A DNA stretch of 64,000 bases from positions 62,001-126,000 of the forward strand of contig JAKAWW010000001.1 in NCBI GenBank assembly GCA_021816895.1, read 5' to 3'. The DNA is from Microcaldota archaeon (lineage in GTDB: Archaea; Micrarchaeota; Micrarchaeia; Micrarchaeales; Micrarchaeaceae). Below the pieces are notes generated by a model that ran no database searches, had not been told where the DNA came from, and saw only the letters and a program-made list of their open reading frames with translations. This document shows, piece by piece, positions 10,886 to 28,658 of this stretch. The position numbers were made by a program, and so were the translations under genes. The number at the start of each line of letters is the position of its first letter. Positions within the stretch are counted from its first letter, which is position 1.

Positions 10886-10896
10886 ACATATAAATT
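10886..10896 (+). promoter_or_regulatory. TATA box of tRNA-Lys
   Basis: ACATATAAATT lies about 30 nt upstream of the first base of the tRNA, the usual archaeal spacing. It supports the tRNA gene being expressed despite its unusual insertion. Confidence 0.6.
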
Positions 10897-10922: not shown

Positions 10923-11011
10923 GGGCTCATAGCTCAGCTTGGTAGAGCGGCTGGCTCTTAACCAGTAGGTCGGGGGTCCGAAATCAATCGACGGAAATCC
11001 CCCTGGGCCCG
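10923..11011 (+). tRNA. tRNA-Lys(CUU) with a 15-nt intron in the T-loop
   Basis: Acceptor strands GGGCTCA and TGGGCCC pair over 7 bp (one G-U), the D-stem is GCTC/GAGC, and the anticodon stem GCTGG/CCAGT encloses CTCTTAA, giving anticodon CTT. The T-stem is GGGGG/CCCCC but its loop is 22 nt instead of 7. Removing 15 nt (10983-10997) leaves a 7-nt loop TCCGAAT. The splice region folds as TCCG/CGGA, a 4-bp helix flanked by 3-nt bulges AAA and AAT, the bulge-helix-bulge expected of archaeal introns. The mature loop would carry C at position 55, which is nearly always U. CCA is not encoded. Confidence 0.88.
10983..10997 (+). other. tRNA-Lys T-loop intron (between positions 59 and 60)
   Basis: The sequence ATCAATCGACGGAAA is predicted to be excised. 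Cuts after the second base of each 3-nt bulge (AA^A and AA^T) regenerate a 7-nt T-loop exactly. At 15 nt it is near the lower size limit of known archaeal tRNA introns. The boundaries are inferred from folding, not measured. Confidence 0.75.
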
Positions 11012-11019
11012 CAACGCTT

Positions 11020-11520
11020 TCATTTCATGGAGAAGGGATCAGAAGGCTTGAATATGGGATATTCGTGCATCGCCACGACGCTGCCAGAAACATCAGCGCT
11101 GACAAGCCCGGATGGCACCGCTAGGATATCCTTGTTTACATCGAGTATCTGAACCATCGCTTCAAGCGCATCAAGCTGCGGCCTTATGAATAGCTCGCTG
11201 AGCTTGTGCGGCGGCCGCACTTCAAACAAGCCCAGGAACGCGCTGCCGTTCTGAATACTTTTGTCGCGAGGCGTTTCATCTATGTATGCGAATATTTTGA
11301 ATATCTTGCCTATAGCTACCTTGTCAGAAGAGAAGCACGTGCCCACAAAATCGTTCAGGAACATGTCGTTTGCTATTGGCATCTTCGATATGGAGAAATC
11401 AGCAGTTATGTTAGTAATCGTATCACTGGAGCGCGGATTGCCCTTCCGCATCAGCGCCAGCAGATGGATGTTCTCTGCATCTGAGGCGAACGTTACGCTC
11501 TTCTTGAATAGCAGCACCAC
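11020..11520 (-). CDS. Hypothetical protein
   Basis: I do not recognise this 166-residue protein. It is soluble, with no signal peptide or membrane segment, and has one cysteine near the middle. The GTG start at 11520 fits a leaderless transcript, because a minus-strand TATA element (TTTTATACC, about 11545-11553) lies at the right distance. A second GTG is the next codon. It lies between endA and tRNA-Lys with its own promoter, so it is not clearly part of the radA operon. Confidence 0.6.
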   Translation of the reverse strand: MVLLFKKSVTFASDAENIHLLALMRKGNPRSSDTITNITADFSISKMPIANDMFLNDFVGTCFSSDKVAIGKIFKIFAYIDETPRDKSIQNGSAFLGLFEVRPPHKLSELFIRPQLDALEAMVQILDVNKDILAVPSGLVSADVSGSVVAMHEYPIFKPSDPFSMK

Positions 11521-11587: not shown

Positions 11588-12751
11588 TCATGGCTGCATC
11601 CAGTCTATCTCGTAGTATTCATAATTGCTTCCCTGCAGGGATATACGCCTTACCCTGTAATAGGTAACTGCGGTTTCGCGGTCGGCAATCGCTATTATTA
11701 GCTCAAGCTTGCGCTCCTTTGCGGCATTTATTATGGCGGACAGCTCTGCTCCGCCTATGTACTCGTCTTCGCCCAAGGATAGCATGCCGAACCTCGGCTT
11801 GTCCTCGCCTGGCACCTCTATGCCGCCTGCCTTCCTGTGGTAAAGCATGAAATCTATGCCCATGCGCTTCTGCCTGCTCTTTCCAGGTATTGCAAGTATG
11901 AAGGTTTTTCTGACAGAATGCGCAACCCGTATCGCCCTTGCCCATTCAGATATGAGCAATTTAACGTCTCTCGGGAAAACGTGCACCACGTGCCTCGAGT
12001 GCATCCAGTTTGCGTCGTCTTTTACTGGCCTTGCGCCAGGGAAGTATATCCTGAAGTGTGTGCCGAACTTGAATCCGGTTTTTACAACGTAGCCAGCTTT
12101 CCTCCAATCCTTGTACACAGCGTATAGCTTTGCGAAGTCGCACCTTCTTGACTCTGCTATCTTCTCTATCTGGCTCTTTGAGAAGTTCCTGACGCTCAGG
12201 GCGCCCTCCTCCATGAGGAAGAGCGTCTCGAATATGTCAAGCTTGTTGAGCGTGCCGCGCTCGCTGAGCTTGTAGGTGCCGTACTGGCCGAACCACTGCT
12301 CCATGTAGATGCTCTTGCCGTCTTCGCTGCTGTCGACAACTGTTGTCATGTCCGCAGGGAAGAACATGCCGCTAAGCGCGTATTTCTTCAGCTTGAGCTT
12401 TGCCACAGGGTACTTCTTTGTCTGCGTCTCGCCTGCCTGCGCTTCTGTGCGTTCATCGAGCCTGGCCACAAGCCCGCGGTCGCGCCAGTCCTTGTAGGTG
12501 AAATACCGCGCCATAAACTTTTTCCTGCCGCTGAAGCTCGCAGCAGCGTCATTGAAAGAAAGCGCGCCAGCAATGCCAGTGCATTCGGCATTCCTCACAT
12601 CAATGAGGTAGAGCGCCTCTTCAGGGGCAAGCTCAAGGGCATCCCCAACAATGTTGCCGTAATAGCTGCTCCTTAGTATGTCTTTCGTAGACTGGTCTTC
12701 CACTATGAATTTTTTCTGCTTTTCATTGAACAGTATTTGAAGGGCCATCAT
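11588..12751 (-). CDS. endA: tRNA splicing endonuclease, three-unit (epsilon-type) single chain
   Basis: This enzyme cuts bulge-helix-bulge motifs to release tRNA and rRNA introns. At 387 residues it is about twice the usual archaeal EndA and contains two copies of a YKDWR element (near residues 87 and 213), followed by a third C-terminal unit. The catalytic triad is visible in the middle unit: Tyr in FRIY, His in WMHSRH and Lys in VRKTFIL, with His-to-Lys spacing of about 31, as in known EndA. This fused N-alpha, alpha, C-beta plan is the one described for ARMAN archaea, whose enzyme accepts introns at non-canonical positions. Its ATG overlaps the dphB stop by 4 nt. Confidence 0.9.
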   Translation of the reverse strand: MMALQILFNEKQKKFIVEDQSTKDILRSSYYGNIVGDALELAPEEALYLIDVRNAECTGIAGALSFNDAAASFSGRKKFMARYFTYKDWRDRGLVARLDERTEAQAGETQTKKYPVAKLKLKKYALSGMFFPADMTTVVDSSEDGKSIYMEQWFGQYGTYKLSERGTLNKLDIFETLFLMEEGALSVRNFSKSQIEKIAESRRCDFAKLYAVYKDWRKAGYVVKTGFKFGTHFRIYFPGARPVKDDANWMHSRHVVHVFPRDVKLLISEWARAIRVAHSVRKTFILAIPGKSRQKRMGIDFMLYHRKAGGIEVPGEDKPRFGMLSLGEDEYIGGAELSAIINAAKERKLELIIAIADRETAVTYYRVRRISLQGSNYEYYEIDWMQP

Positions 12752-28519: not shown

Positions 28520-28558
28520 TTATTTAAATAAATCAAATCAAATAGTAAGCATAACAAT

Positions 28559-28633
28559 GGGCTTGTAGCTCAGCCTGGTCAGAGCGGCGGTCTTATAAGC
28601 CGTAGGTCGAGAGTTCAAATCTCTCCAGGCCCA
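28559..28633 (+). tRNA. tRNA-Ile(UAU)
   Basis: The acceptor pairs GGGCTTG/CAGGCCC, the D-stem is GCTC/GAGC, the anticodon stem GCGGT/GCCGT surrounds CTTATAA (anticodon TAT), and the T-arm is GAGAG-TTCAAAT-CTCTC. The discriminator is A and CCA is not encoded. A TATA-like ATTTAAATAAATC lies about 30 nt upstream, and a run of six T follows the gene. Most archaea read AUA with an agmatidine-modified CAU anticodon; a genuine UAU is known only in a few lineages. No intron. Confidence 0.93.
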
Positions 28634-28658
28634 TTTTTTGAAATGCGAGAGTCATTTG

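Follow-up and report, generated by a model that had tools for sequence, protein, structure and literature searches.

Introns bounded by bulge-helix-bulge (BHB) motifs have been mentioned for archaea in the T-loop, the D-loop and the acceptor stem of tRNAs, namely in Thermoproteales and Caldiarchaeum (PMC6379350, PMC3293823, PMC12397907). The T-loop is also where the halves of permuted tRNAs meet, those of Thermofilum pendens and Cyanidioschyzon merolae having their junction at position 59/60 (PMC3218864). In C. merolae, cmPus4 made no pseudouridine 55 (Psi55) in vitro in pre-tRNAs with a T-arm intron, and cmPus1 modified U55 in the fully intron-containing precursor (PMC9602550). Among splicing enzymes, the ARMAN-2 endonuclease is a homodimer with broad BHB specificity, for which the catalytic residues Y236, H251 and K282 and the lysine K161 of the ARMAN-specific loop (ASL) have been named (PMC6379350), and it accepts unusual BHB motifs and positions (PMC6379350, PMC12397907).

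Here we describe a micrarchaeote whose sole tRNA-Lys(CUU) gene almost certainly contains a 15-nt BHB intron, situated between positions 59 and 60. As in the T-loop introns of Thermoproteales and Caldiarchaeum, the BHB lies in the T-loop, removal falls to the archaeal endonuclease (predicted here), and several tRNAs of the genome are concerned; unlike them, this intron has a micrarchaeote host, is very short (15 nt, and 13 nt in siblings), and has a central helix (H helix) whose compensatory changes follow a T-loop variant with C55 and G57. The 59/60 junction is that of the permuted tRNAs, but the exons of Lys(CUU) stand in ordinary order within one gene. The T-intron of C. merolae tRNA-Ile(UAU) likewise forms an hBHBh′ motif in the T-loop, whereas that gene is eukaryotic, has three introns and carries U55 where Lys(CUU) has C55 (PMC9602550). 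T-loop splice sites and the epsilon2 class of endonuclease being already known, the Lys(CUU) intron adds a further case, in a lineage known for a broad-specificity endonuclease.

The tRNA-Lys(CUU) gene and its T-loop insert

The window analyzed is a 64-kb stretch that matches exactly within a single-contig genome of 928,770 bp (G000, contig C1). By direct reading, the gene runs GGGCTCA-TA-GCTC-AGCTTGGTA-GAGC-G-GCTGG-CTCTTAA-CCAGT-AGGTC-GGGGG-[TCCGAAATCAATCGACGGAAAT]-CCCCC-TGGGCCC-G, with all four stems formed. Its T-loop extends over 22 nt (10977-10998), in the order TCCG-AAA-TCAATCGA-CGGA-AAT. All four pairs of the H helix TCCG/CGGA are formed; the helix stacks on the GGGGG/CCCCC T-stem, and each strand has a single 3-nt bulge, which makes a strict BHB. 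Excision of 15 nt leaves a normal 7-nt T-loop, TCCGAAT. The reading of the sequence, with four stems and a CTT anticodon, bears out the initial annotation of a complete tRNA with a 22-nt T-loop. The features, in window coordinates, are the following:

10887..10896 (+): putative TATA-box-like element CATATAAATT, 27-36 nt 5′ of the tRNA start, a putative archaeal promoter by position and composition
10923..11011 (+), genome C1:72923-73011: tRNA-Lys(CUU) gene, complete cloverleaf including the discriminator G, CCA not encoded (sequence, cloverleaf finder, Rfam tRNA)
10923..10982 (+): 5′ exon, tRNA positions 1-59 (BHB cut rule AA^A; mature loop as in intronless orthologues)
10957..10959 (+): anticodon CTT (CUU) (sequence)
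10977..10980 (+): TCCG, T-loop positions 54-57 and 5′ strand of the BHB central helix (fold, covariation)
10981..10983 (+): 5′ bulge AAA, predicted cut after the second A (fold)
10983..10997 (+): 15-nt intron, position 59/60 (strict BHB; product TCCGAAT matches intronless relatives)
10992..10995 (+): CGGA, 3′ strand of the BHB central helix (fold; covaries with positions 55 and 57 across relatives)
10996..10998 (+): 3′ bulge AAT, predicted cut after the second A (fold)
10998..11011 (+): 3′ exon, position 60 to the discriminator (BHB cut rule, sequence)

Free folding of the whole precursor RNA gave exactly this BHB in the T-arm. A point against the intron is its inner stem, which has only two pairs. 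When the insert was shuffled, four in-register H pairs arose in 0.8% of cases. Archaeal BHB motifs are usually cut two nucleotides into each bulge. We propose that, in the precursor, U54-C55-C56-G57 would be held in a helix with the CGGA close to the intron's 3′ end instead of making the T-loop. An ARMAN-2-type endonuclease would cut both bulges and RtcB would ligate the exons, restoring the T-loop UCCGAAU at a spliced junction of ...GGGGGUCCGAA joined to UCCCCC. Transcription, cleavage and ligation of the precursor are predictions of this model. Modification of the T-loop would, as the initial annotation proposed, probably come after splicing; the nearest precedent is the work on cmPus4 and cmPus1 of C. 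merolae cited above.

The gene escapes standard tools: ARAGORN did not report a Lys(CUU) gene at 10923-11011, and the Rfam tRNA model, its alignment being disrupted at the T-loop, gave it 28.7 bits, just short of the 29-bit cut-off. Across the 928,770-bp genome, ARAGORN, the Rfam tRNA model, an intron-tolerant cloverleaf finder and a search for CUU anticodon arms found no second Lys(CUU) gene, and they located one gene for Lys(UUU) (C1 783788-783862). The initial annotation had named another intact tRNA-Lys(CUU) in the genome as evidence that would count against the intron; by these four types of search, the gene is the sole one.

Orthologues with and without the intron

The comparison set consisted of 40 searched relatives (G001-G040) and of a pattern scan of named genomes, in which the close loci belong to Micrarchaeota. 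Seven of the 23 same-family relatives with a readable locus have a T-loop intron in Lys(CUU) (G008, G009, G010, G014, G017, G021 and G023), as do 10 of the 49 named Micrarchaeota loci, a set that overlaps the first. In the same family, most intronless genes show the loop TCCGAAT or TCCAAAT, and the loop is exactly TCCGAAT in five of them (G001, G007, G012, G013 and G015). The introns of the relatives span 13 nt (locus L176) to 41 nt (locus L140) and differ in inner sequence, with both splice sites kept.

The H helix is mostly retained in the intron-bearing orthologues while both of its strands change (TCCG/CGGA, TCCA/TGGA, TTCA/TGAA). C55 faces a G of the intron in all but one case (TGGA, CGGA, AGGA); U55 faces A or G, and G57 has C or U as its partner. 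In a set of 15 distinct T-arms, 96.3% of the cells were paired, compared with 33-70% when the partners were slid, and at the pairs formed by positions 55 and 57 both sides change between species, in a compensatory manner. The helix is imperfect in three relatives, G021 having a C55-A mismatch and G010 and G023 three pairs out of four. This covariation is direct support for the predicted use of the H helix. The comparison with Lys(CUU) of related Micrarchaeota that had been suggested at the outset thus came out in favor of the intron, the intronless genes carrying the predicted spliced loop and the intron-bearing ones covarying. On a poorly resolved tree of the endonuclease, intron-bearing and intronless relatives are interleaved, requiring six gain or loss changes, no better than with shuffled labels; 2 of the 21 branches of this tree are well supported.

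Splicing enzymes, further T-loop introns and alternative readings

The genome encodes one splicing endonuclease, located in the window as follows:

11588..12751 (−): three-unit (epsilon-type) tRNA-splicing endonuclease, 387 aa (PDB 4fz2 alignment; Pfam PF01974, PF02778)

The PF01974 match lies at C1:73660-74136, and RtcB is encoded at C1:356894-358198. The predicted endonuclease matches the ARMAN-2 epsilon2 enzyme from one end to the other (PDB 4fz2, 9w2k; E 6e-166 over residues 3-387 for 4fz2), with the equivalents of the catalytic triad Y236, H251 and K282 and of the ASL lysine K161 conserved in the 4fz2 alignment. It is the enzyme expected to cut the Lys(CUU) intron. Unlike in the ARMAN-2 system, its gene adjoins an intron-bearing tRNA, lying about 580 bp beyond tRNA-Lys(CUU) in convergent orientation. 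A 166-aa open frame without a Pfam match (window 11020-11520, −) stands between the two. We considered a functional or regulatory link between the endonuclease gene and the intron and rejected it as unsupported, the proximity being independent of the intron: the two genes are less than 2 kb apart in 15 of the 25 family genomes, usually convergent, with or without the intron, so that shared gene order suffices.

T-loop introns of 13-33 nt are present in at least seven tRNA genes of G000, and six of them show the strict motif at 59/60. The inserts, obtained with the intron-tolerant cloverleaf finder, are those of Lys(CUU) (15 nt), Ala(GGC) (25 nt), Arg(CCU) (16 nt), Leu(CAA) (13 nt), Ser(GGA) (16 nt), Arg(UCG) (19 nt) and Arg(UCU) (33 nt); Ser(GGA) has an additional intron in the anticodon loop. 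In six of them all four H pairs form in the strict register, an outcome that shuffled inserts reach in 0.8-2.7% of cases each, so that chance is excluded for the six jointly. The motif of Leu(CAA) is looser (TTC/GAA, with a longer 3′ bulge), and a 13-nt T-loop insert in this tRNA was also found in G008 and G027. In G008, a second genome available in full (952,257 bp), seven T-loop introns were counted, and six of these fall in isoacceptors that also have one in G000; G027, of the sister family, has three. The view that T-loop introns are rare does not hold in this group, with at least seven in G000 and seven in G008, and 15 nt is not the minimum length, given the 13-nt T-loop introns of G000 and its relatives; a literature search yielded no source on which archaeal tRNA intron is the shortest reported. 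Nearly every T-loop has UUCR or UCCR adjoining the T-stem. Since this motif makes up half of a BHB, an insert needs merely the complementary YGRA three bases before the T-stem, and with half of the BHB supplied by the T-loop itself, introns of 13-16 nt are workable and the same site can serve in at least six tRNAs of G000.

Further observations concern other tRNA genes of this genome. The anticodon-loop introns of Ala(UGC), Thr(UGU), Ile(GAU), Thr(CGU) and Phe (C1 260163-260274, 301145-301252, 438717-438827, 523759-523867 and 607436-607546) have a similar hairpin in common, e.g. AAGCTTCTT...AAGAAGCTT, and may be spreading introns; a similar hairpin, outside any tRNA, directly follows tRNA-Ala on its 3′ side (just after C1 260274). 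tRNA-Thr(GGU) (C1 399888-400003) appears to combine a D-loop insert with an anticodon-loop intron, and has C55. A tRNA-Ile with anticodon UAU is found at window 28558-28634, and likewise in G008 and G027; in most archaea, AUA is decoded by a modified CAU anticodon. Two near-identical tRNA-Gln(CUG) genes (C1 411558-411630 and 412942-413014) lie about 1.4 kb apart, one of them with a damaged T-stem (ATCAG/CTGGC).

Given that some tRNAs tolerate odd loops, the tRNA might function unspliced, its 22-nt loop being kept as an enlarged T-loop. We hold this to be very improbable: the 7-nt loop expected from splicing is precisely the one that intronless orthologues have, the H helix shows covariation from lineage to lineage, the length and inner sequence of the insert vary freely among relatives while both splice sites are kept, and the splicing endonuclease and RtcB are both encoded. 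The failure of standard finders to see the gene could also point to a degenerate tRNA pseudogene or an integration scar, with extra sequence inserted in the T-loop, but this is scarcely credible for a gene with all its stems intact and a normal anticodon and discriminator, the only one for its codon (AAG, lysine), with orthologues conserved across genera and inserts at the same kind of site in seven genes of G000.

The position of the cut within a BHB intron is a separate matter, as two adjacent splice registers give the identical product TCCGAAT. Removal of 10981-10995 or 10982-10996, i.e. a cut one or two nucleotides earlier, at 57/58 or 58/59, would produce the same mature sequence; the standard cut, after the second nucleotide of either 3-nt bulge, falls at 59/60, where the permuted tRNAs of Thermofilum pendens and C. 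merolae are also joined (PMC3218864), and we consider the earlier cut unlikely. Taken together, these results indicate that the T-loop intron of Lys(CUU) at 59/60 is real and very probably functional. The 15-nt strict-BHB intron put forward in the initial annotation is thus backed by the fold, by the intronless orthologues, by the compensatory changes and by the genes for the endonuclease and RtcB.

Position 55 and the pseudouridine synthases

U55/Psi55 and its pairing with G18 are near-universal in tRNAs. When the splice registers of Lys(CUU) were enumerated by hand, none gave U55. The initial annotation had added that C55 would remove the target of Psi55 formation; C55 is indeed real, although it is neither caused by the intron nor linked to it, and no Psi55 synthase was found in G000. 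We rejected any connection of C55 with the intron, as intronless relatives have C55 and the intron-bearing G009, G023 and G014 have T55. C55 is found in 37 of the 49 Lys(CUU) loci of Micrarchaeota that have the same anticodon core (Marsarchaeota-labelled loci being counted as Micrarchaeota), and T55 is present in all eight readable loci titled Nitrososphaeria, Nitrososphaerales, Nitrosocaldus, Conexivisphaerales or Thaumarchaeota. C55 is shared in G000 by the tRNAs for Asn, His, Val(CAC), Lys(UUU), Leu(CAG) and Thr(GGU), and two tRNAs, including Ala(CGC), have G55. In the ARAGORN sets, C or G occupies position 55 in 7 of 35 tRNAs of G000, 14 of 35 of G008 and 9 of 42 of G027.

In archaea, Psi55 is made mainly by Pus10 and possibly by Cbf5 (PMC7912444), and Sulfolobus acidocaldarius does without Pus10 (PMC7668247). 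Neither Pus10 nor TruB/Cbf5 gave a match in the G000 genome, and neither gave one over the cut-off in the 40 relatives; no TruA was found in G000, and TruD was the sole Pus type that E. coli queries found in three genomes. The same models matched TruB/Cbf5 in 67 of the 146 genomes of the phylum, all in other families. Matches to the Pus10 model occurred in 70 of these 146 genomes, 45 of them over the cut-off; apart from one hit in family f2, all of these matches lie in other families, and many of the weaker ones fall on Cbf5 genes. The exception, in G102, is strong (7e-91), while the f2 genomes among the 40 relatives have none over the cut-off, and it represents either a retained gene or contamination. 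For the Cbf5-bearing families, the single tRNA looked at, the tRNA-Ala of locus L304, has T55. Our literature search on the loss of Cbf5 or Pus10 in DPANN returned nothing relevant.

This distribution suggests that the lineage has lost the enzymes that modify T-loop position 55, as it seems from the genomes searched. We give about even chances to a broader scenario, in which the whole order would have lost Psi55, with Pus10 and Cbf5/TruB gone, between a fifth and two fifths of the tRNAs having drifted at position 55 to C or G, and the freed T-loop hosting many short BHB introns. Alternatively, Psi55 could be made by an unknown synthase.

As a case of T-loop splicing, the Lys(CUU) intron is clear, unusually short and relatively well supported, with orthologues that have and lack the intron and a splice helix that covaries. 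Standard finders lose tRNA genes with such introns (at least seven here), so that micrarchaeal tRNA sets seem incomplete when they are complete. The most novel part of this work, computed from sequence, is the apparent double loss of synthases together with C or G at position 55. If the broader scenario is true, such cells could either dispense with U55/Psi55 and its pairing with G18 or have something in their place. The absence of detectable Psi55 synthases combined with C/G55 would make it possible to test what the T-loop/D-loop elbow needs when it has no pseudouridine 55.
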